Source: Deltaproteobacteria bacterium (GTDB lineage Bacteria > Myxococcota_A > UBA796 > UBA9615). From it: 32,251 nucleotides of DNA. Below are positions 3,846-27,903 of this stretch, piece after piece (the first letter of the stretch is position 1; each line of letters opens with the position of its first letter). The translations under genes were made by a program, and so were the position numbers. Where the stretch lies: NCBI GenBank assembly GCA_002724675.1, contig PBPL01000210.1, positions 1 to 32,251 of the forward strand. The letters run 5' to 3'. The notes below the pieces were generated by a model. The model searched no databases and was not told the origin of the DNA. It saw only the letters and a list, made by a program, of their open reading frames with translations.

Positions 3846-6698
3846 GTGCGTCTCCGACTGGCCATCACGGCGTTCTTCCTGTTGTCCGGTGCAACGGGAC
3901 TGATCTACCAAGTGATCTGGGTTCGTCTCTTGGGCCTCATCGTTGGGCACTCGGTGCTGGCTATCTCTACGGTCGTCGCCACGTTCATGGCGGGGCTGGG
4001 TATTGGTGCACGACTGGCAGGTGGCCGCGCCCAGCGTTCGTCGCATCCGTTGGTGATCTACGGGGTGCTCGAGATCGGGATCGGCTTGCTCGCGGCGGTC
4101 TCTCCCTGGTGGCTGGGGATGGGCACATCGCTCTTCCATGCCGTGGGCGCGGGCGCCGGCGGAGCAGGAGGAGGCCTGTCGCTGGTGGGCGTCCTGTTGG
4201 TGGCTGTGCTCGTGTTGCTGCCACCCACATTGGCTATGGGTGCCACGCTGCCGCTCCTGACGCGCTGGTACGCCCGGGATGAGGCGAGCCTTGGTCTCGA
4301 CATGGGTTGGCTCTATGCCATCAACACCACGGGGGCGGTGGGTGGCGCCGCCTTGGCAGGCTTTGTCCTGCTCCCTGTCTTGGGGCAGCCGACGACACTG
4401 GGTCTTGCGGCAACAGTGAATGGACTCGTGGGGCTCTGTGCCGTCCTGTTGGGCCGGCTCTATCCCCTAGCGCCGAAGCGAGCGAGCACCGAAGAGACCG
4501 TGGCCCCGTCCCCTCCGTCCGCTCCCTTGCCGGGCCTGGACAGTGGGCAGGTGGCTGTGGGCGGTGTCCTGTTGGCTTTCGGGCTCTCGGGTGCTGCGGC
4601 GATGGTCAACCAAGTGGCTTGGAGTCGTTCGTTCGAGTTGTTCGTCGGCTCTACGACCTACGCGTTCAGCTTGATCGTCTGTGCCTTCATCTCGGGCCTG
4701 GCGCTCGGTGGACATGTGTTTGCCCGTCGGGTGGATAGGTCTCCAGATCGTGTGGCCTTGCTGGCCTCGGTGAATGTGGGCATCGCCATAGCTGGTGCAG
4801 TCCTCATCCCTCTCTTGGGCGAGCTGCCGCTCTTGCTCCTCCGTCCTGTCGCTGCCCTCTCTGGCTCGTTCCTGGCAATGCAGTGGTTCACCTTTGGCTC
4901 GCTGTTCGCCCTGGTGCTCTTGCCGACTTTCTTGATGGGGGCGACCTACCCCGTGGCGACCCGCGCGCTCGTGGGCGCGCCGGACCAAGCGGCCATTGCA
5001 GTCGGTCGGGCTTACGGCTGGAACACTGCCGGGGCGGTGCTTGGCGCTCTCTGCGCGGGCATGGTGATGGTCCCCTGGTTGCAGCTGCGCGGCACGCTGT
5101 GGCTGGCGGTGGCGCTCAACCTGGCGGCGGCGGCGGTGTTGTTGGGACCCCGACGCAAGCTGTCCTACGCCCTGCCTCTCTTGGGCGCGCTGGGGATGAT
5201 CGCGACCCCTGCTTGGAATCCGCGCCACATGAACTTGGCCCCCCACATGTATGCCCGGGACCTGGTTGAGGACCCGGAAGCACTCCGTGCAATGCGCGAT
5301 CAGGGCAGCGTGCTCTTCCATGAAGAGGGCATGGGCGCCACCGTGACCGTGCTTCAGCGGCCGGAGGGGGCTCGTGTCTTGCGCATCAACGGCAAGACCG
5401 ATGCCTCGACCCAGAGCGACCGGCTCGGTCAGGGCTTTCTCGGCCATCTACCGCTCTTGCTGGCTCGTGATCGTGGAAGCGCGCTGATGATTGGCTTGGG
5501 CTCGGGCATGAGCCTGGGCTCGGTGTTGTCCCATCCTGTCGAGCGCTTGAAGGTCGTTGAGTTGCTCCCCGAAGTGTACCGGGCCGCAGAACACTTCGAC
5601 GCCATGCTGGGAGGTCCGCTGACCGATCCGCGCACCGAGGTGGTGTTGGGTGACGGTAGACAAGTGCTGCTCTATGGCGAGCAGCAGTTTGATGCTGTGA
5701 TCAGCCAGCCCACCAATCTGTTCGTCTCGGGGATCAGTTCTCTGTTTACCGTGGAGGCCTTCGAGGCCATGGAGCAGGCCCTGCGCCCTGGGGGCGTTGC
5801 TGCAGTGTGGCTGCAGGGCTACTTGCTGCCCAGTGACGACTTCAAGACTATTTGCCGCACCTTTCAGGAGGTCTTTCCGGGCGCAACGCTCTGGAACGCA
5901 GGCCCCTTTGACTACTATCTGGTGGGCCGCGAAGCCAAGGGGGCCGCCGGCGTGGTGCCAGTCGCCTCTGCTCTGCTCGACCAGCGCCTGGCAGAGACCG
6001 CGGACTCTCTAGCTGGCAACTGGACCGGTCTGCAGGAGGTGGTCGATCTGCAGCGCCACTTCCTCATGGACTCGTCGGCGCTGCGAGACTTCGTTGGCCA
6101 GGGCCCCGTACAGCGTGACAGGGATCCGTTCCTGGAGTTCAGCGTCCCGCGTGGCCTCTATGGTGGCGAGGGGCTTCTGGATGTGCCCGAGCTGCTAGAG
6201 CAGCGGCTTCTGTTGCCTGTCGAGCCGCCCAACCCCCAGCTAGAGGCGCTGCTCTTAGCTAGGCGTACGGCGGTGGGCCCCATTGAGCGGGCCGCGCTCG
6301 CTTCGGATCTCCCGGAACTCCTGGAGAGTGAAGCCGGCGATCTCGGCCACCCCTTCTTGCGGGAGCGGAAGGCTCGACTACTGCACGAGGATGCCTTGGC
6401 GCGGGGACGAGCGGGGGACCTCCAAGCCGCAGAGCGTGGTGCGCGCGAGGTGTGTGAGCTGGCGCCCGACTCGTTGCCAGGTTGGCGCCTTCGATCGTTT
6501 CTCAGGCATCTTCAGGGGGACTCGGTGGGGGCGGTGGAGATGTTGCGGACAGCAACGGCGGTGCAGCCGTGGAATGTCTACGCTCACCTGGCTCTCGCTC
6601 GCTACCTGGAGCAGGAGGGCCGCACCGAAGAGGCCTCCCTGGCTTACGAAGAGGTGCTCAGGCTCGACCCGTCGTTGCCGGAGCTCGACACTCCCTGA
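3846..6698 (+). CDS. Fused membrane (MFS-like) / spermidine synthase-like protein with C-terminal TPR region
   Basis: MRLRLAITAFFLLSGATGLIYQVIWVRLLGLIVGHSVLAISTVVATFMAGLGIG, a second FGLSGAAAMVNQVAWSRSFEL half, SAM-binding GSALMIGLGSGMSLGSVL...VVELLPEVYRAA, then TPR-like NVYAHLALARYLEQEGRTEEASLAYEEVLRLDPS. Confidence 0.9.
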   Translation: MRLRLAITAFFLLSGATGLIYQVIWVRLLGLIVGHSVLAISTVVATFMAGLGIGARLAGGRAQRSSHPLVIYGVLEIGIGLLAAVSPWWLGMGTSLFHAVGAGAGGAGGGLSLVGVLLVAVLVLLPPTLAMGATLPLLTRWYARDEASLGLDMGWLYAINTTGAVGGAALAGFVLLPVLGQPTTLGLAATVNGLVGLCAVLLGRLYPLAPKRASTEETVAPSPPSAPLPGLDSGQVAVGGVLLAFGLSGAAAMVNQVAWSRSFELFVGSTTYAFSLIVCAFISGLALGGHVFARRVDRSPDRVALLASVNVGIAIAGAVLIPLLGELPLLLLRPVAALSGSFLAMQWFTFGSLFALVLLPTFLMGATYPVATRALVGAPDQAAIAVGRAYGWNTAGAVLGALCAGMVMVPWLQLRGTLWLAVALNLAAAAVLLGPRRKLSYALPLLGALGMIATPAWNPRHMNLAPHMYARDLVEDPEALRAMRDQGSVLFHEEGMGATVTVLQRPEGARVLRINGKTDASTQSDRLGQGFLGHLPLLLARDRGSALMIGLGSGMSLGSVLSHPVERLKVVELLPEVYRAAEHFDAMLGGPLTDPRTEVVLGDGRQVLLYGEQQFDAVISQPTNLFVSGISSLFTVEAFEAMEQALRPGGVAAVWLQGYLLPSDDFKTICRTFQEVFPGATLWNAGPFDYYLVGREAKGAAGVVPVASALLDQRLAETADSLAGNWTGLQEVVDLQRHFLMDSSALRDFVGQGPVQRDRDPFLEFSVPRGLYGGEGLLDVPELLEQRLLLPVEPPNPQLEALLLARRTAVGPIERAALASDLPELLESEAGDLGHPFLRERKARLLHEDALARGRAGDLQAAERGAREVCELAPDSLPGWRLRSFLRHLQGDSVGAVEMLRTATAVQPWNVYAHLALARYLEQEGRTEEASLAYEEVLRLDPSLPELDTP

Positions 6699-7897
6699 CG
6701 CATGAGCAGCTGCCAGGCTAGGAGGGCTCCCACCAAGCTGACTACCGCGAGCCCCTTGAAGGTCATGCTCGTTCCGATGCGGTCCAACAGGACGGCGGCT
6801 CCCGCCATGGCTAGGAGGCTCCCGAGGCCGTGCCCCGAAGCCAGAAAGAGGCCCTGTGCGGAGTTGCGGAGTTGGCTCGGGGCATGTCGGCTGACGAGCG
6901 CGATGGCCCCGACCCACCACGCGCCGAATGTCAGCCCATGGCTAGCTTGAACGGCGATTAGCGCGGCGGGCGAGGTGAGGATCCCTGAGAGCCACCAGCG
7001 GGGAATACTGATCGTGATTGCGATGAGGACCAGTCTGCGCGGACCCAGCCAAGCCAGCAGTGATCGCCCCCAGGCCATCACCATGACCTCGACGCCAACC
7101 CCGAGAGCGATCGCCTGGCCCGCGATCGCCGGAGACAACCCGAGGCTCTTGACGTGGAGCGCGAAGAAGTGGTCGTAGATCGAGACGGTGGCGCTGTGGA
7201 TGACTGCGATGATGCAGAGGGCGCGGAGCACCGGCTGACCTAAGAGCAGCCTGATGGCCCCACCCCTGGGGCGCGCCGATTCGGTTTCACTTGCAGGTGT
7301 GCGGAGGGCTTCGCCGTGTCCCGGGCCGGCGGTCTCCTCGTTGGCCTCTCTGCCCACTGTGGGCAACGTCCAGGTCACGGCAAGGGTCCCCAGAAGAAGC
7401 AGGGCGCCCAGCGCGAGAGGAGCTCTCGGCTCCGTCTCGTAGAGTCCGCCGGCCAGTGCGGCCGCGGCGATGAATCCCACCGAGCCCCAGAGTCGCACCT
7501 GACCGTAGGAGTCCATCCCCTGGGGCAGCCCGCGAACACTCAGGTTGTCGACGATCGCACTGGATGGGGCGCGGCAGAGAGCGATCAGGATGGCTGCTGG
7601 GATCATCCACTGCCAGGAAGGTGCAACCACGAGCCCTACCGCCCCGATCGCGGCGAGAGCCAGAGAGAGGCGAAGTACCAGATCTGCGCGGCCCGAGCGG
7701 TCCGCTAGGAGCGTGCCGAGCGGTCCAGTGGATAGGAGGCCGATGGGGAACAGCGCAAGAATGCCGGCCGTGGCAGCGCCGGAGGCGCCCAAGTCTCCGA
7801 GCACGACCGCCAGAAAGGGGCCCACGGCCCCAATGGCCCCGAGGTACAGGAAGTACCAGGTAGCCAGTCGAACCCGGGGATCTCGGAGAGTCACCAC
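6644..7897 (-). CDS. MFS transporter (MFS_1-like)
   Basis: 417 aa with about 12 hydrophobic segments; N-terminus RLATWYFLYLGAIGAVGPFLAVVLGDLGASGAATAGILALFPIGLLSTGPLGTLLADRSGR. Overlaps the convergent gene's 3' end by 55 nt. Confidence 0.88.
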   Translation of the reverse strand: MVTLRDPRVRLATWYFLYLGAIGAVGPFLAVVLGDLGASGAATAGILALFPIGLLSTGPLGTLLADRSGRADLVLRLSLALAAIGAVGLVVAPSWQWMIPAAILIALCRAPSSAIVDNLSVRGLPQGMDSYGQVRLWGSVGFIAAAALAGGLYETEPRAPLALGALLLLGTLAVTWTLPTVGREANEETAGPGHGEALRTPASETESARPRGGAIRLLLGQPVLRALCIIAVIHSATVSIYDHFFALHVKSLGLSPAIAGQAIALGVGVEVMVMAWGRSLLAWLGPRRLVLIAITISIPRWWLSGILTSPAALIAVQASHGLTFGAWWVGAIALVSRHAPSQLRNSAQGLFLASGHGLGSLLAMAGAAVLLDRIGTSMTFKGLAVVSLVGALLAWQLLMRQGVSSSGNDGSSLSTSS

Positions 7898-7904
7898 GAG
7901 GCGG

Positions 7905-8351
7905 TCAAGATTCTGTGGGTTCGGAGCGGAGGGGTTTGCGCATGGCCTGGTGCGGGATGCGAGCGTCGAGAAACTGAGGTCCGAAGGGCTCGTAGCCGCG
8001 CCGGGTGTAGAAGGGTACGACCTCTACCTGAGCATGGAGCACCACTGCAGCCTCGCCACGGCGACGCGCCTCGTCTTCGAGAGCGTCCATGAGCAGTGCT
8101 CCCAGCCCCAGCCCGCGTGATGAGGCTCGCACCGCCACGCGCTCGGCTCGGACCTCCCCATCGTCGGTCTTGCGCATGCGAGCAGTGCCTACGGGGCCCT
8201 CGTCGGTGATTGCCAGGAACTGAACGCATTGGGCGTCTAGGCCGTCCAGGTCTTCTTCCACCGTGACCGCTTGCTCCAGCACGAACACGTCGTGTCGGAT
8301 CGCGAGGCAATCGCTGAGTTCCTCTGGTGTGGCGATACGAACTTGCGGCAT
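7905..8351 (-). CDS. GNAT family N-acetyltransferase
   Basis: MPQVRIATPEELSDCLAIRHDVFVLEQAVTVEEDLDGLDAQCVQFLAI...VGTARMRK...AERVAVRASSRGLGLGALLMDALEDEARRRG...FYTRRGYEPFG. ATG at 8351 has GGAGG upstream and lies 7 nt from the MFS gene. Confidence 0.92.
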   Translation of the reverse strand: MPQVRIATPEELSDCLAIRHDVFVLEQAVTVEEDLDGLDAQCVQFLAITDEGPVGTARMRKTDDGEVRAERVAVRASSRGLGLGALLMDALEDEARRRGEAAVVLHAQVEVVPFYTRRGYEPFGPQFLDARIPHQAMRKPLRSEPTES

Positions 8352-19019: not shown

Positions 19020-20789
19020 ATGGCTGCGAAGGAGGCAACGCCGGGCGGCCCACACACACGTCGCGGTTACATCGCGCTCGTGTATGGGCTTCAGAAGGCT
19101 CGGCGAACGGGGATTCTAGAGGTCCGCAGCGCGAGGCACTGGCGTCGCCTGTACGTGATCGATGGCGTCCCCTGTTGGTCAGCGAGTGACCGGATCGATG
19201 ATGAGCTTGCTCGTTCGCTGGTGCAGTCGGGGGCGATTCGAGAGAAGGAGCTCTCGCAGTTTCGGCGCGAGTTGGGTCCTTATGATGGGCTCGGCAAGGC
19301 ACTTCTGGCCGCAGGCAAGCTGGATGGGTCTAGCCTGGCCGAACACCGCTTGATGCTCGTAGAGCCCGGTGTGGGTGCGCCTGTGGGCTGGGACCGAGGG
19401 GACTGGAGCTTCACAGCTCGCGACGGGCTGCCTCTGGACGCGTTGGATCCGGGCCTGTTGCCCCCGGTGTCTGCGCTCCGGGGTCTCTGGGAGGCGGTGT
19501 GTCATTTCGTTCGTATGGATGAGGCGCTGCCTGCGGTTGTGGATACCGCGGCTGGTCCACTGCGGCCCGAACCCGGCTTGACCCGGACCTTGCCGACGCT
19601 GGGCCTCAAGGATCCACTGGATGGATTCGCTGCGAGTCTGGGTGAGGGCATTGCCGTGGATGCTCTGTTCAAGAAGATCCCGGATCGGTCGGGTCACCTT
19701 GTCTTGCTGGTGTGGTTCTTACAGATGGTGGGCCTCATCCGGCGTGACGAGGCTGCCATGGAACAAGGGCTGCTCAAGCTGGCGGAGGGGCGCGATCTGC
19801 TGTCGGCATCTGCTCTCATGTGGCCCGACTACGGTGAACCCTCCCCCGATTCTTCCCAGCCGGCACAGGGACCTGCTGGCCGTGTTTCTCCGCCGGTCAA
19901 GGCGCCGAAGGCCAAGGCCCAGGCCGCTGGGCCGAAGGTCGCCCCCTCTGCGCGCAAGGCTGTACAGGGTCAAGGAACCCGCCGAACTGGCTCCCGTGCG
20001 GAGGGGACCTTTGCTCACGAGAACCGCCGGGCGAAGAAGTCCAAGGGGCTCGGGAAGGAAGTGGAGCACCTGGCGCGGCTCATTCGCACCGCACACCGCC
20101 ATCGTATGGGCCAGGACTTCTATGGGTTCCTCGATCTTGCCCGCACTGCTGATGGCGGTGAAATTCAAGATGCCTACGACCGACTGACACGGGGATGGCA
20201 GGCGGCTGCAAGCAATTCAGGCCTGCCCGAGGAGGACCGGCGGCTGGTGGATGAGTTGAACGCGGCGGCCATTCTGGTCTGGCAGACCCTCTCCGATGCT
20301 CGGCAGCGCGACGAGTATGACAGTCGCCTGGCGGCGGGAACGGCGCCGGTCTTGTCTGGGGGGGGGCAAGAGGACCTGCTGCCGCCCACCTCTGCTCTCG
20401 GCGAAGGGGATCTACTTCCGGAGCACGCGAAGGCTCGCAAGCTCATGGAGCGGGGCAACTTTCGGGAGGCGCTCCTCATGCTGGAAGATCTGCGCGAGGG
20501 CCAACCCTCGTCGCCCGAAGTGCTCGCCGACTTGGGCTGGTGTGCTTGGCGTACCAAACACATGGGTGGCGACGGGAATGATGGCCCAGAGGACTTCCTG
20601 TTGCTGGCCCACACCTTCGAGCCCCGATGTGTTCGGGCCCTGGAGTTCCTCGCTCGGATAGCGAAAGAGAAGCAGGACCTGGCGAAGCTCAAGACCTGGA
20701 CAAAGCGGCTCATAGCGGTCGTACCCGATCACGCGTGGGCCAAGTCCGAGTTGAAGAAGGCCTCTGCCGGCCGTGGCTCGCGCAAGTAG
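19020..20789 (+). CDS. DUF4388 (PATAN-like) protein with degenerate J-domain-like segment and C-terminal TPR region
   Basis: N-terminus QKARRTGILEVRSARHWRRLYVIDGVPCWSASDRIDDELARSLVQSGAI...GLGKALLAAGKL; Lys/Pro/Ala-rich linker; DFYGFLDLARTADGGEIQDAYDRLTRGW...WQTLSDARQRDEYDSRLAAG (J-like without HPD); ARKLMERGNFREALLMLEDLREGQPSSPEVLADLGWCAW (TPR-like). Confidence 0.75.
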   Translation: MAAKEATPGGPHTRRGYIALVYGLQKARRTGILEVRSARHWRRLYVIDGVPCWSASDRIDDELARSLVQSGAIREKELSQFRRELGPYDGLGKALLAAGKLDGSSLAEHRLMLVEPGVGAPVGWDRGDWSFTARDGLPLDALDPGLLPPVSALRGLWEAVCHFVRMDEALPAVVDTAAGPLRPEPGLTRTLPTLGLKDPLDGFAASLGEGIAVDALFKKIPDRSGHLVLLVWFLQMVGLIRRDEAAMEQGLLKLAEGRDLLSASALMWPDYGEPSPDSSQPAQGPAGRVSPPVKAPKAKAQAAGPKVAPSARKAVQGQGTRRTGSRAEGTFAHENRRAKKSKGLGKEVEHLARLIRTAHRHRMGQDFYGFLDLARTADGGEIQDAYDRLTRGWQAAASNSGLPEEDRRLVDELNAAAILVWQTLSDARQRDEYDSRLAAGTAPVLSGGGQEDLLPPTSALGEGDLLPEHAKARKLMERGNFREALLMLEDLREGQPSSPEVLADLGWCAWRTKHMGGDGNDGPEDFLLLAHTFEPRCVRALEFLARIAKEKQDLAKLKTWTKRLIAVVPDHAWAKSELKKASAGRGSRK

Positions 20790-20817
20790 TGGAAGAGAAG
20801 GGCCTAGGAAAGACTCG

Positions 20818-23800
20818 ATGACGTCTCTCGAAGACACCAACTACGTGCTGGTCGCCGACTCGGACGCCCGATCTGCTCGTTACTTTCGCGGTCGCCTGTC
20901 GGAGAGCGGTATGGAGGTCGTGGTGTTGTCGGAGCCCGATGCCGTGGTCGACGAGGCCAAGCGGACTCGGCCAGCGCTGATCGCGCTCTCGGCTGACGAG
21001 GGTGACTGGCAGACCCTCTGCTCTCGCCTCCGGGGCCAGGAAGGGTTGTCGGATGTCCCCCTGGTGGTGATGACGGCGGGCTTGTCTGCCGCCGAGATGG
21101 TACTGCACTGGTTCGAAGAGGAGCGTGCTGCGGCTTACGTCCGCAAGCCACTCGATGGTGACTTCCTTGATGAGCACCTCCTGGCGTTGTTCCCGGGCAA
21201 GGTCAGCCTGAGGCCGCTGGGGGCTGCCTGGGAAGAACGGCCTACGGGAGTCTTGGAGGCGATCGAAGACGACGACGACGAGCTCGAGGATGAGGTCGCA
21301 CCGGTCCGCGCGCCGGCCTCGCAGGCTCAGATCGACGAATTGCAGTCGATGGCAGCTGCGATGGCTGGGCTCGAAGCGGAGCTGGAGGAACTCCGTGCGA
21401 GGGCGGCAGAGGGCGACGCACTCAGAACTGAGTCCGAGTCGCTGCGGGATGAGTTGGCGTCACTGCGCAGCCAGTCGGCAGACGAGACGAGCGGGTTGGA
21501 CTCAGTGCGCAAGCAGCTGAAGGAGGCCCAGGACGAGCTCGCGCGGCGCAGGGGTTTTGTGGAGGACCAGGCGCAGCGCCTCAAGGAGATGGACGCTAAG
21601 GAGCGTTCTCGGGCTGCGGAGCAAGCTGGCATTCAGGCCACGCTCACCGAGACACTCGAGACTCTGGATGCCGTTCGGGCGGAGGCCGATCGTCGGGCGC
21701 AAGAGAGTGAGATGGCCGCGGACATGCTCAGGGCTCGTCTCCAGACCATCATCGCCGAGCGGGATGAACTCCAGACCTCTGTGAAGGACCTCCAGGTGGC
21801 CCGGGAGACTGACGCAGCTCAAGGTGAAGAGTCTCTGCGCATGGGCCAAGAGGCTGCGGAACGTGAGGCATCCGCCCTGGAGAGAATCGAGGCCTTGGAG
21901 GTCTCGGCTCGGGCGGCGGCACAGGACGCTGCTCGTGCCGCTGAGGAAGCGGCGAAACGGCACGCTGCCGAGCTGGATGGGCTGCGTAGCGAGCTCGAAG
22001 AGGCCGCAGCGAGCCATGTGGAGCAACTAGAAGCACTGCGCGCTGAACACTCGTTGTCCGAGGGTCGTCTGTCCGAGGCCGCTGCGATCCGTGAAGAACT
22101 CGAAGCGGCTGTTGTGGCGGAGAGGACCGAGGCGGAGGCTGTTAAGTCCGCACTCGAGGGAAGCGTTGCTGAACATCAAGCTCAGGCTGAGGCTGCCCGT
22201 GCTCGGCTGGAAGAGGTCGTCGCTTCCCAGAAGGCTGAGCTGGAGGCCATGGAGGCTCGCCTCGAAGAGACCGCTGCTGCCGGGGCAGCGGAGTCTGAGG
22301 CCGCTCGCACCGGGTTCGAGCGGGACCTCGCCGAGAGGACGGCCGAGTTGGAAGCCTCGCGCACCGAGCTGGAGCGCGCGGTTGCCTCCCACGAGCAACA
22401 GGTTGCGCTCCTGACATCCCAACTCGAGGCTGGAGCGGCGACGCAGGCTGAGTTGGTCGCATCGCTCGAGGGTCAATTGGCGCAGGCCATGACGGACAAG
22501 GACGAGGCGGCCGAGCGGGTGGGTGCCCAGCTGGAGCAGGCTGCTGAGCGCCACCAGGAGGAGGTCCAAGCGCTGCGGTCTCAGATGGAAGAAGCAAGAG
22601 AACGCCACGATGGAGTTGCGGCGGCACTACAGGCTGAGTTGGAGCAAGCGGCTGATCTGCATGCCGAGCAGACTCGAGTCCTCCAAGCGACGGTGGACGC
22701 TACCCAGGCCGAGCATAGCGATGAGACCTCGTCCCTACGGGCTGAGCTGGATGCGCTGCAGGACCAGCAGGACAGCCGCGAACGCTCGGCGGCTGAGGCG
22801 CTCGATGCCGCCAAGCTTGCCCAAGCCGCAGAAGTGGAGGCCCTCCAGGACCAACTGAAGATCACTATGGCCGAACACGCCGAGGAGATCGCAGAACTGC
22901 GCCTCAAGCTCCAGGCCGATGCGGACGGTCACGCCGAAGAAGCGGCCTCGCTGCGTCGCTCGCTCGAAGAGGCGAGAGCCGAGTCGGAGCTCCAGGTCGC
23001 GTCTCTTCGCGTCGAGCTGGAGAGCGCTCTGGCCGAGCGAGACCTGGAAGAGAGCTCGCTCCGGGAGGAGTTGGAGTCCCTCCGAGCCCTGGGTGAGACG
23101 CAAGAGAGTTCCTTGCGGGATCAGCGGGAAGCGGAGCGTGCCGAGCACGATGCAGAGCTCCAGACGCTGAGGGGGGAGTTGGCGGAGCTCCGGGAAGAGT
23201 ACGAGGACTTCTGCGACTCCAGCGATCGCGAACTGGCGGATCTCTTGACCCAGATCGAGTCTGCCGAGGAGCATGCCGCCGACGGTCTAGAGGACGCAGA
23301 GCAGCGCATCGCGGCGCTCCGCACCGAGCGAGATTTGCTGCAGGGTTCCGTGAGTCGACTTCAGGCAGAGACCCACACGCTCGAAGACCGGCTGGCGGAG
23401 AGCGCCCGAGCAATCCAGAAACAGGCCGATGACTTCGAAGAGCGCAGCCTTCGTCAGGAGTCCGATGCTGCTGCACGAGTCGATGCCCTCGTCGCAGAGA
23501 GCGCAGACGAGCTAGAGGCCGCTCGGCAGCGGGCATCGGATCTCGAGGAGTGGAGTCGTGCCGAACTGGAGGCGGCCGAACAACGGCTGAGCTCCGTGGT
23601 GGAGGAGCGGGACCGCTTGCGTGGTGATCTGGAAGCTCGGGAGGAGAGCCTTCGCGGCGAGTTGAACGCTCTCAGAGAGCGTGCGGAACAGGAAAGCCAG
23701 GAACTGAAGAACACCTTGGACAGCGTCCGCCAGGCTGCCGAGGAGCAGGCGGCTTCGAGTCGCCAGGACCTGCTTGCTGCCAATAAGCGGGAGGCTGAAT

Positions 23801-23979
23801 TGGAGGCCCAATCCGAGCAACTGCGTGAGGAGATGCGAGTCAAGGAAGCACTCTTTGCGGAAGACGAGGAGTTCCGTAAGGACGAGAATGAGTTCCTTCG
23901 CGACGAACTGGACGAGTTGCGCGAGGAAGTGGACACGCTGCGTCGCGAACTCGAGTCATCGGATGGGCAGGAAGATTGA
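20818..23979 (+). CDS. Pseudo-receiver domain plus very long coiled coil (AglZ/FrzS-like architecture)
   Basis: N-terminal NYVLVADSDARSARYFRGRLSESGMEVVVLSEPDAVVDEAKRTRPALIALSADE...PLVVMTAG...AAYVRKPLDGDFLDEHL, then about 900 residues of Glu/Ala/Leu/Arg-rich heptad/hendecad sequence. Confidence 0.85.
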   Translation: MTSLEDTNYVLVADSDARSARYFRGRLSESGMEVVVLSEPDAVVDEAKRTRPALIALSADEGDWQTLCSRLRGQEGLSDVPLVVMTAGLSAAEMVLHWFEEERAAAYVRKPLDGDFLDEHLLALFPGKVSLRPLGAAWEERPTGVLEAIEDDDDELEDEVAPVRAPASQAQIDELQSMAAAMAGLEAELEELRARAAEGDALRTESESLRDELASLRSQSADETSGLDSVRKQLKEAQDELARRRGFVEDQAQRLKEMDAKERSRAAEQAGIQATLTETLETLDAVRAEADRRAQESEMAADMLRARLQTIIAERDELQTSVKDLQVARETDAAQGEESLRMGQEAAEREASALERIEALEVSARAAAQDAARAAEEAAKRHAAELDGLRSELEEAAASHVEQLEALRAEHSLSEGRLSEAAAIREELEAAVVAERTEAEAVKSALEGSVAEHQAQAEAARARLEEVVASQKAELEAMEARLEETAAAGAAESEAARTGFERDLAERTAELEASRTELERAVASHEQQVALLTSQLEAGAATQAELVASLEGQLAQAMTDKDEAAERVGAQLEQAAERHQEEVQALRSQMEEARERHDGVAAALQAELEQAADLHAEQTRVLQATVDATQAEHSDETSSLRAELDALQDQQDSRERSAAEALDAAKLAQAAEVEALQDQLKITMAEHAEEIAELRLKLQADADGHAEEAASLRRSLEEARAESELQVASLRVELESALAERDLEESSLREELESLRALGETQESSLRDQREAERAEHDAELQTLRGELAELREEYEDFCDSSDRELADLLTQIESAEEHAADGLEDAEQRIAALRTERDLLQGSVSRLQAETHTLEDRLAESARAIQKQADDFEERSLRQESDAAARVDALVAESADELEAARQRASDLEEWSRAELEAAEQRLSSVVEERDRLRGDLEAREESLRGELNALRERAEQESQELKNTLDSVRQAAEEQAASSRQDLLAANKREAELEAQSEQLREEMRVKEALFAEDEEFRKDENEFLRDELDELREEVDTLRRELESSDGQED
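21844..23298 (+). repeat. About 27 degenerate tandem units of 54 bp / 18 aa within the coiled-coil gene
   Basis: Hand segmentation, e.g. AERHQEEVQALRSQMEEA / RERHDGVAAALQAELEQA / ADLHAEQTRVLQATVDAT / QAEHSDETSSLRAELDAL ... MAEHAEEIAELRLKLQAD / ADGHAEEAASLRRSLEEA / RAESELQVASLRVELESA. The phase holds to nucleotide 23298 with one single-residue skip. Confidence 0.85.
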
Positions 23980-24129: not shown

Positions 24130-27100
24130 ATGATGAAGTTTCAAGGTCGCCTCTCGATGCCAGTCTGGCTTTCCGTAATAGTCCTCGCCTTACTGGGCCT
24201 CACCGTGACGGGCTGTCCCGAAGCCCGCCCACCGGTCGATCAGACCCAGGCGCTTCCCATCGCCAAGGCCATGTTCGATGGCGAGTGGTACTTCCAGCGC
24301 ACGGTCATCGACACACCTTGGGCGTCCGAGTTCACATTCGTGGGGGACCAGGGAGAACTGGACCGAGTCCGGTGGCGCATCGAAGAGGGCTTTCTCGTGG
24401 CGGTTCGTAGCTACGAGCGCTTCGATGGCTCGGACCCTGATCGCAACGCTGATGGGAACTATGAGGGTGAACCGGTGGCAGCGTGGCCCATCGTTAGTCA
24501 CTTCGATGTGCGACGCGAGTACAACACCACAACCGGCGAAGAGACGAACGTCATTGTCGAGAACACAAGTGATCGCCAGTGGTTCGAGCGAGACTACATT
24601 CGGGTCGACTGGTCGCAGAACGTCATCACGAACTGGAACTTCTGGGCGCCCAACTTCGTCGAGATGGATGCCCTGGCCTATGCCGTCAGCGACCCGAGCG
24701 ACCCGAGGGCACCCGTGGTCGAGGACAACTACCTGGATGTGACCTCGGCGTTCGTGGCCAAGCCGCTGACGGCGGTGGACCCCGATTACCCTGAGGATGG
24801 GGCGATGCCCCTGTGTTGGTATTTCTATCACTTCGATGACTGCACGGCGGCGGAAGTGGTGGTCCGCAACTCGTTCCTGAAGGTGGAGGACCGGCAGTTC
24901 GAGGCGCAGCCGTGGGACGGCATCGACATGGAGCTGTTCGGCTACTTCGATGTGCAGCGGCCCACGTACGACGAGCAGTACGGTCCCACCAATACGGGTC
25001 GGCTTCGCTATCAGTCCAAGTGGAACATCTGGGAGAGCAGCCACGATGGGCGAAGCTGCAGCCTGGATGCGGAGTGCGAAGACGTCGTGGGCTCGCACTG
25101 CGACGAGCTGGAGGGGCAATGCACCCTGCCGTACCGGGAACGCGAGACACGCCGCATTGTCTGGCACACGTCCCCGGATCTGGACTCTCGCTTTGCCGAA
25201 GTGGTGGACGAGGTGGTCGACCAGTGGAACGAGCCCATGCGGGACACTGTGAACACCTTGCGTGTCTACGAGTGCATCGACGCCGGTGGTGACGAGGGGG
25301 ATTGTCAGTCAGAGATCGATGACGACATCGAGATCTTCGCCTTCTGTCCCAACAACCCGGTGCAGGAAGACGATCCGTCCTACTGCGGTGAGGCCGGCTT
25401 GGCCCCGCGCCTGGGAGACCTTCGCTACAACTTTCTCTACAACGTGCCCCATGCTGGTCGTGGCAATCCCTTTGGCTTCGGCCCGGCACAGCTCGATCCC
25501 CTGACCGGTGAGATCGTCTCGGCGGCCGCCTTGGTCTACGAGGCTGAGATCCGTTCGTACGGGGCTTGGGCCCGAGATCTCGTTCAGCTCATCAATGGTG
25601 AGATCGCAGAGGAAGACTTCATCGACGGTGAGAACGTCTCCGATTGGATTGCAGCGCGCAATTCCGTGCCCACCCAGCCGGTGGAGTACAGCGAAGAGGA
25701 GGCGGAGCGGCTGGCTTCCAAGGTCCAGCTGCAGTATCGCCACACGTTACCCTCGCTGGGTAATGGCGACCGCAGTCCTCGAGCGAAGGTCGAGATGAGG
25801 CGTGCGGTGCTCGATGTCTTGAGGGACCACCCGGCCGTGTCTTCGGATCACGGCGGAGCTTCTGCGCGCCTGGACGCCTTGATTGGTTCCCCATTGGAGC
25901 AACTGGCCCTCACCGAAGAGGACTTGCTGGCAGCGGCGATGGTGCCGGGTGGGCCCACGTCAGACGCAGTCTTGGAGGCGGCCTCTCCGTTGCGGCAGGT
26001 CCGCGCTCAGCGCTTTCGAAAGGCTCGGAACGCGAGGCTCGAGCGGAATGCTCGCAGGTGCGCCTACTTCCGGGACTTCGTGGACCCCTCGGTGGAGGGC
26101 GAAGCCCACCGCTATGCAGGGATGGATCCCGAAGAGATCCGGTGGGAGATCATGCTCGGGGTCTACCGTGGAACGATGGCCCATGAGATGGGCCACACCA
26201 TTGGGCTTCGCCACAACCTGGAGGGGAGCGCTGACCCCTTCAACTACGACTCGATGTATTGGCTGCTCCGCGACGATGGAGACATGGGGCCGCGCTACCT
26301 GGATCCAGAGACGTCCATTGAGGTGGAGGCCGGCATTCGGCAGCATCAGTACTCGTCGGTCATGGACTACCTGAGCCGGTTCAACAGCGACCATCTGGGT
26401 GCGCAGAGCTACGACAAGGCGGCGGTCAAGTTCGGTTACGGCCGGGTGATGGAGGTGATGACCGACGCAGGGTTCAATGACTGGCTGCTCAACGACGAAT
26501 ACATCGCCCACCTCACCGGATTCCTGCAGCCCTTTAACTATGAGGATGATGGGTCACTGTGGGGCATCCACTACACAGATTACCCCGCCTACTATGGTGA
26601 CCTGCAGGCTCGTCGCGACGTGCCCCAGCGCTTGCTGAGTGACTTCCACGGTATTGCTGAGTGGTGGGGGTCTCCGCACACGCAGCTGGCAACGGAACTG
26701 GGCGAGCCGGTTGTCCCTTATCGATTCTGTTCGGATGAGTTCGTTGGCTCGGCCTTCAAGTGTCTCTACTTCGACGAGGGGGCCGACCTGTATGAGATCC
26801 CTACGGATCTCGCGCAACGCTACGAGCGCTATTACATCCTCAACAACTTCGCTCGAGACCAGATGTACTTCAACGCTGATGGGCACGCGTGGCGCATCTG
26901 GGACAGGTATTTCGACCCCATGATCGGCTTGAACCAGTGGTGGGTTCTCGAAAACCAGTTCCTCCATGCCGGTGAAGAGGAGGACGCCGATGTGGATGGC
27001 TATTTCCAGAGGTATGACGGCTATGGGCCATTCACGATGGGCGTGCGAGAGAGCTTCAATGTGTTCGCTCGCACTCTGGCTCGACCAGAGCCCGGCGGCT

Positions 27101-27903
27101 ATGGCCTGGTGACCGATGCGGACGGAAATCAGCAGTGGAACCCGCTGTGGTGGTCTGAAGATTTCACCGTCGGCGTGAATGATGGGCGCTACCTGAGCAC
27201 GGACTGGGACTACGAGGAGGGATACTTTTGGGACGAGGCCATTACGCGGGTAGGGTTCTTCTCCAACAAGATCCTGGCCATGGAGGCGCTCTTCGACCCG
27301 ACGACCTATTTCCTGGGACAGGACACGGCGGCGGATCTGCGGGGCTTCCGAGTCAACTACGGCGCGAACTTCTTCGAGCCGCTCATGGACCTTGTGGGCG
27401 ATCTCATCGTAGGGGACACGGCAGGCTTTGCCCCCTACGAGGTGGATGGTCAGGTCGTCTTTCCCGACTACGCGGACTATCCCGCCACAGCCCCAGGCGG
27501 TGGTGTTCCCATTGATCCCAACGCAGGCTTCACGATTCAGCTGCACACCATGTTGTTGGGGCTCGCCCTCTTGCCAGACACGTTCGACTCGGACTTCATC
27601 GACTCGACTCGTCTCTGGCTCGACGGTGACAATGCGCCAGTGACCGATCGCCCGCTTGTCTCGCACTCCGATCCGGAAAGCGGTCTCACCTGGGTGGCGA
27701 TATCGTATGCAGATGACGAGGGCGTAGAGGAGGGGATCGGAGCTCGTATGCTGATCCGAGCCAACGCGTACGCGAGCCATCTGGAAAGCGGTAGTCTCAC
27801 GGAAGAAGAGACGGTGCGTGTCGAACAACAGCTCGGTCTGCACCGCGAGAACCTGAACCTGATGCGCGCGATCCACATGGAGTTGGGCGTGCTGAGTTAC
27901 TGA
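24130..27903 (+). CDS. Large zinc-dependent metalloprotease lipoprotein (metzincin-like)
   Basis: Lipobox LTVTGCPE; HEMGHTIGLRHN (26182-26217, HExxHxxGxxH) and SSVMDY Met-turn-like motif (26353-26370). 1257 aa. Confidence 0.85.
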   Translation: MMKFQGRLSMPVWLSVIVLALLGLTVTGCPEARPPVDQTQALPIAKAMFDGEWYFQRTVIDTPWASEFTFVGDQGELDRVRWRIEEGFLVAVRSYERFDGSDPDRNADGNYEGEPVAAWPIVSHFDVRREYNTTTGEETNVIVENTSDRQWFERDYIRVDWSQNVITNWNFWAPNFVEMDALAYAVSDPSDPRAPVVEDNYLDVTSAFVAKPLTAVDPDYPEDGAMPLCWYFYHFDDCTAAEVVVRNSFLKVEDRQFEAQPWDGIDMELFGYFDVQRPTYDEQYGPTNTGRLRYQSKWNIWESSHDGRSCSLDAECEDVVGSHCDELEGQCTLPYRERETRRIVWHTSPDLDSRFAEVVDEVVDQWNEPMRDTVNTLRVYECIDAGGDEGDCQSEIDDDIEIFAFCPNNPVQEDDPSYCGEAGLAPRLGDLRYNFLYNVPHAGRGNPFGFGPAQLDPLTGEIVSAAALVYEAEIRSYGAWARDLVQLINGEIAEEDFIDGENVSDWIAARNSVPTQPVEYSEEEAERLASKVQLQYRHTLPSLGNGDRSPRAKVEMRRAVLDVLRDHPAVSSDHGGASARLDALIGSPLEQLALTEEDLLAAAMVPGGPTSDAVLEAASPLRQVRAQRFRKARNARLERNARRCAYFRDFVDPSVEGEAHRYAGMDPEEIRWEIMLGVYRGTMAHEMGHTIGLRHNLEGSADPFNYDSMYWLLRDDGDMGPRYLDPETSIEVEAGIRQHQYSSVMDYLSRFNSDHLGAQSYDKAAVKFGYGRVMEVMTDAGFNDWLLNDEYIAHLTGFLQPFNYEDDGSLWGIHYTDYPAYYGDLQARRDVPQRLLSDFHGIAEWWGSPHTQLATELGEPVVPYRFCSDEFVGSAFKCLYFDEGADLYEIPTDLAQRYERYYILNNFARDQMYFNADGHAWRIWDRYFDPMIGLNQWWVLENQFLHAGEEEDADVDGYFQRYDGYGPFTMGVRESFNVFARTLARPEPGGYGLVTDADGNQQWNPLWWSEDFTVGVNDGRYLSTDWDYEEGYFWDEAITRVGFFSNKILAMEALFDPTTYFLGQDTAADLRGFRVNYGANFFEPLMDLVGDLIVGDTAGFAPYEVDGQVVFPDYADYPATAPGGGVPIDPNAGFTIQLHTMLLGLALLPDTFDSDFIDSTRLWLDGDNAPVTDRPLVSHSDPESGLTWVAISYADDEGVEEGIGARMLIRANAYASHLESGSLTEEETVRVEQQLGLHRENLNLMRAIHMELGVLSY

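Follow-up and report, generated by a model that had tools for sequence, protein, structure and literature searches.

A 1068-residue protein encoded in the window, by which we mean the whole 32,251-nucleotide stretch of DNA analyzed, joins a FrzS-type pseudo-receiver to a long coiled coil in which histidine recurs at 18-residue steps. The best-supported reading, to which we assign a probability of about one half, is that this ladder forms the polar stutter layer of a near-straight coiled-coil rod in a FrzS-like scaffold, with the layer filled by His in this lineage. The main rival is that the His column is a tolerated relic of how the repeat arose. The features discussed below are as follows.

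19020..20789, + strand: upstream partner gene, 589 aa, with a weak DnaJ-like segment and a TPR segment (matches below curated cut-offs)
20773..23979, + strand: open reading frame of 1068 aa, a pseudo-receiver followed by a long coiled coil (translation)
20842..21189, + strand: FrzS-type pseudo-receiver domain, residues 24-139 (best phmmer and Foldseek matches are FrzS)
21325..21954, + strand: first coil section, heptad-like and without His, residues 185-394 (hydrophobic period and lag autocorrelation)
21955..23301, + strand: 25 units of 18 residues with 18/5 coiled-coil periodicity, residues 395-843 (repeat and register fit)
23302..23976, + strand: C-terminal coil with a conserved C-terminal block, residues 844-1068 (periodicity and orthologue alignment)

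The reading frame at 20773-23979 starts with GTG at 20773, with an alternative ATG at 20818, and the protein as a whole has no Pfam match at E ≤ 0.001. Its coiled coil spans ∼880 residues, from about residue 185 to the protein end, a length that corresponds to ∼130 nm if fully helical. Within it, residues 186-393 have a hydrophobic period of 3.50 with autocorrelation peaks at lag 7, and the C-terminal coil (residues 844-1068) has a period of 3.58 and no polar stutter column.

The 18-residue repeat and its histidine column

Between these two sections, residues 395-843 show a lag-18 identity of 0.31, as compared to ∼0.15 at most other lags, and a hydrophobic period of 3.60, bearing out the 18-residue phase proposed in the initial annotation of this DNA. 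The register fit divided this section into 25 units, interrupted once by a slip of one residue between residues 413 and 430, and the units have a rough consensus of A E H x A E [ALV] E [AS] L R A E L E A A x. Column 3 is His in 11 of the 25 units (44%; residues 397, 415, 468, 540, 594, 612, 630, 648, 702, 720, and 792). The same count had been reported earlier, with His at a fixed position 4 in a phase starting from 21952; the count stands, but the position does not, as it becomes 3 after the slip. Residues 426 and 834 are the only off-ladder His in this section, in agreement with the two counted earlier, and Gln, which had been noted at this position in several other units, occupies it in four. 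The remaining occupants are Arg (three units), Gly (two units), and Glu, Lys, Ser, Tyr, and Ile (once each). Since His fills 11 of 25 units, many layers do without it, which counts against the stutter-layer reading.

The His column is far above chance. When residues were shuffled within units in 20,000 trials, no column held more than 7 His, and the relative entropy of column 3 (2.03 bits) is the highest of the 18 columns, the second being Leu14 at 1.77 bits. Synonymous codon identity between units is 0.370 versus a shuffled null of 0.386 ± 0.014. As this is the shuffled level, the units are old copies, and recent tandem duplication was accordingly ruled out as the source of the ladder and of the His that its units have in common. 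Identity is slightly higher between adjoining units of the array.

The ladder could instead be a relic of descent. If the founding 18-residue unit chanced to have His at the stutter layer and the array expanded long ago, a polar site could tolerate the residue with no specific role for it, and the orthologues described below do lack the His, the column accepts Q, R, G, E, K, and S, and the array resembles an old repeat expansion. However, decay is expected at unconstrained sites, and with synonymous sites saturated His still stands in 44% of units, in the most informative of the 18 columns, so that we consider such a relic an unlikely, though serious, explanation.

Predicted placement of the column in the coil core

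At 100 degrees per residue, 18 residues of a helix close exactly in five turns. When column 3 is left out of the calculation, the hydrophobic moment deviates from the direction of that column by 3 degrees on the Kyte-Doolittle scale and by 9 degrees on a binary scale, and the core placement claimed for it in the initial annotation is supported as a prediction. The core columns run 17-(4)-3-(4)-7-(3)-10-(4)-14-(3)-17, with the stutter at the His column, where two consecutive 4-steps meet, and hydrophobic occupancy is 2/25 in column 3 versus 16-23/25 (Ala counted) in columns 7, 10, 14, and 17. Repeats of the 18/5 type (7+7+4) have been described as a delocalised stutter (PMC4786415). The window protein shares with these coiled coils both the hydrophobic periodicity of 3.60, here combined with an 18-residue recurrence, and the 4-3-4-3-4 core spacing, but differs from them in having a polar stutter layer in which His predominates.

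Over the whole coil, 12 of the 14 His are found no more than 50 degrees from the local hydrophobic stripe. In 29 other coil segments, among them the pattern-selected L141 coil described below, the corresponding figure was 30 of 90 His (33%), giving a binomial P of ∼8e-5. AlphaFold2 modeled residues 592-735, as a single chain, as one unbroken helix with a pLDDT of 97, a result that is silent on packing. A partner is indistinguishable in a single-chain model, and the His column might serve to dock a different protein, or a helix running antiparallel to it, instead of lining the core of a homo-oligomer; FrzS itself works by partner binding (PMC12632262). The stripe, however, runs on from the Leu/Ala core columns, which fits self-association, and we regard such a docking surface as quite improbable.

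In the preferred reading of a polar stutter layer, the pseudo-receiver would serve as a docking head on the ∼880-residue rod, and heptads combined with a regular 4-residue stutter would produce a nearly straight coil. At every stutter, one residue would face the bundle axis, in a layer that appears to be polar in this branch of the family and whose usual occupant in this lineage would be His, or else Gln or Arg. Since His could sit in the core and hydrogen-bond across it, its likely job would be structural, with the polar layers fixing register and oligomer state and loosening the packing at regular intervals.

The ladder in orthologues and in other proteins

The closest comparison comes from a sister genus (genome G001), in which the same three genes occur in the same order and the neighbors of the coil gene are 41% and 74% identical to those in the window. 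The sister-genus coil protein has 818 residues, and is 39% identical over 145 residues at its N-terminus and 48% identical over 71 residues in the C-terminal block (AEDEEFR...LRDELDELREE), with a middle that is rewritten relative to the window protein. Its coil contains only one His, which is off the stripe, leaving none in the stripe. It has approximately nine 18-residue units. The column at the centre of their stripe, again flanked by a 4-step on either side and picked post hoc on these nine windows, reads R, E, Q, Q, Q, R, K, S, R; none of these residues is hydrophobic. What is common to the sister genus thus seems to be the polar layer and not the His, as judged from a single orthologue and a column chosen after the fact. 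Farther relatives mostly have heptad coils with 14-, 21-, or 28-residue recurrences and no ladder, and the ladder His is conserved in none of the relatives examined. A search with the coil across 79 relatives gave no match outside its own genome, although composition filtering may mask weak matches. The orthologues and this search together ruled out the ladder as a conserved family feature; with the nearest relatives lacking it, the ladder is, as far as these comparisons reach, an unusual variant local to this lineage.

The initial annotation had proposed that the His could confer pH- or metal-dependent behavior and had named orthologue conservation as one check. No His was found at the ladder position in the orthologue, one of the outcomes it had set against its own proposal, and a conserved pH or metal function of the ladder is therefore not supported by these alignments. 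A rod in which His layers spaced by ∼27 Å coordinate metal or gain charge as the pH falls, altering register, stiffness, or assembly, is physically workable, as designed helical filaments with buried His undergo sharp pH-driven disassembly (PMC11286511), and the core placement of 12 of the 14 coil His is in keeping with it. Those filaments likewise contain repeated buried His (burial being predicted in the window protein), but they have hydrogen-bond networks and a measured pH response, whereas the window protein is known by its sequence pattern alone. Against a responsive rod, besides the missing conservation, stand the use of Gln and Arg in place of His in other units, the little pH change that a predicted cytoplasmic scaffold would be expected to meet, and the few metal ligands that one His per helix per layer would offer in a dimer. 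Such a rod is improbable on this evidence. A lineage-specific pH or metal role is possible, but nothing beyond the geometry speaks for it. Its fullest form strikes us as a long shot: a ∼130 nm cytoplasmic rod, belonging to a FrzS-like polarity scaffold of a single lineage, in which regularly spaced buried His layers would be protonated or bind metal all along the length and so determine register, stiffness, or assembly.

Ladders elsewhere were sought with a strict pattern of four His at 18-residue steps and hydrophobics at +4, +7, and +11. Among 386 genomes of the phylum, this pattern recovered the window protein and matches in four others. One of these, in G238, was rejected since in another frame it reads as a repeat of the 18-residue TKAELADYAKTSALAAYA type; on brief inspection, the matched DNA in G088, G104, and G154 is unlike a coil array, so that no coil ladder was evident by this pattern in the 385 other genomes. 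When genome contigs and viral contigs were scanned with the pattern, the matches listed were mostly short-period tandem repeats, and among them was a single convincing coil (L141, positions 7402-7971), from Chrysopegis kryptomonas. This 190-residue membrane-anchored coil with FRREH repeats has six His in a row at 18-residue steps plus a further 11-residue step, and hydrophobics at +4, +7, +11, and +14, the first three of which were imposed by the search pattern. Like the window protein it carries a His every 18 residues, but it is short and has near-identical units (73% at lag 18) and no receiver, and the two are apparently unrelated. A comparable arrangement can therefore arise independently, with the caveat that most of the shared geometry was imposed by the pattern. 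No coil homologue was found in phages, the PDB contained no convincing match to the coil, and a search for the locus by protein among genome contigs gave no match. The literature searched yielded no comparable His ladder in a natural protein, which is weak evidence of absence.

The FrzS-like head domain and its genomic setting

FrzS of Myxococcus xanthus consists of a pseudo-receiver and a coiled coil and is a polar scaffold for type IV pili. The marks of this class include dynamic localisation at the poles and a partnership with type IV pili and the polarity system of MglA and MglB. In the PDB, the best phmmer match of the window receiver is FrzS (2gkg, E 4.8e-7), and Foldseek likewise ranks FrzS first (2i6f, E 5.4e-8, TMt 0.81). 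By the phmmer alignment, the phosphorylation site (FrzS Ala53/CheY Asp57) is Ser, so that the phospho-Asp is lost, the FrzS Ser10/CheY Asp13 site is also Ser, and the equivalents of FrzS His92, Tyr102, and Lys105 are retained. His92 and Tyr102, on the output face, are important to how FrzS works (PMC1974792), and FrzS recruits SgmX via its pseudo-receiver (PMC12632262). With FrzS as the closest receiver fold, the phospho-site lost, His92 and Tyr102 kept, and a C-terminal coil, the protein can be classed from its predicted domains as FrzS-like, an N-terminal pseudo-receiver with a long coil. As in FrzS, the phospho-Asp is replaced, the Ser10 site is Ser, and a long coil follows. The window protein differs in having Thr where FrzS has Gly88, in its 18/5 repeat with a His column, and in the length of its coil, ∼880 residues as compared to 258 in FrzS (PMC1974792).

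In a further M. xanthus protein, AglZ, a receiver-like head precedes a very long coil, and it is in this general architecture that it resembles the window protein. AglZ is a filament-forming coiled-coil protein of gliding motility, according to a title cited in PMC4488436.

The gene with the weak DnaJ and TPR matches lies directly upstream of the gene for the pseudo-receiver and coil (window 19020-23979). The two adjoin in many relatives (G001, G002, G003, G004, G005, G006, G043, G044, G052, G057, G059, and G075), and the pair stays together between genera while the coil is rewritten. The N-terminus of the 589-residue upstream protein is presumably PATAN/DUF4388-like. A single 661-residue frame elsewhere in the same genome (G000:C171:971-1807) matches both this N-terminal domain (E 2.9e-6) and the receiver (E 2.4e-4), and may hold a second, diverged copy of each. 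Downstream in the window, 24130-27903 encodes an apparent lipoprotein resembling metalloproteases of the Met-zincin (DUF4953) type, which is 59-74% identical in G001, G002, G003, and G005 and is far more conserved than the neighboring coil protein; its gene adjoins the coil gene in G001 only. The product of 3846-6698, 950 residues long, combines a spermine synthase domain with TPRs at its C-terminus. The genome contains five PilT-family ATPases above cut-off. No match to an MglB-type roadblock domain (Robl_LC7) was obtained in this 90% complete genome, and the M. xanthus circuit should therefore not be assumed.

With a head domain akin to that of a known polarity scaffold, the protein offers a clean natural test case for the effect of polar residues where a near-straight coiled coil has its stutters. 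Should pH or metal prove to act on the His layers, nature would have an equivalent of the designed pH-responsive filaments. The comparison with the sister genus also indicates that the rod of such scaffolds may be rewritten quickly while both ends stay conserved.
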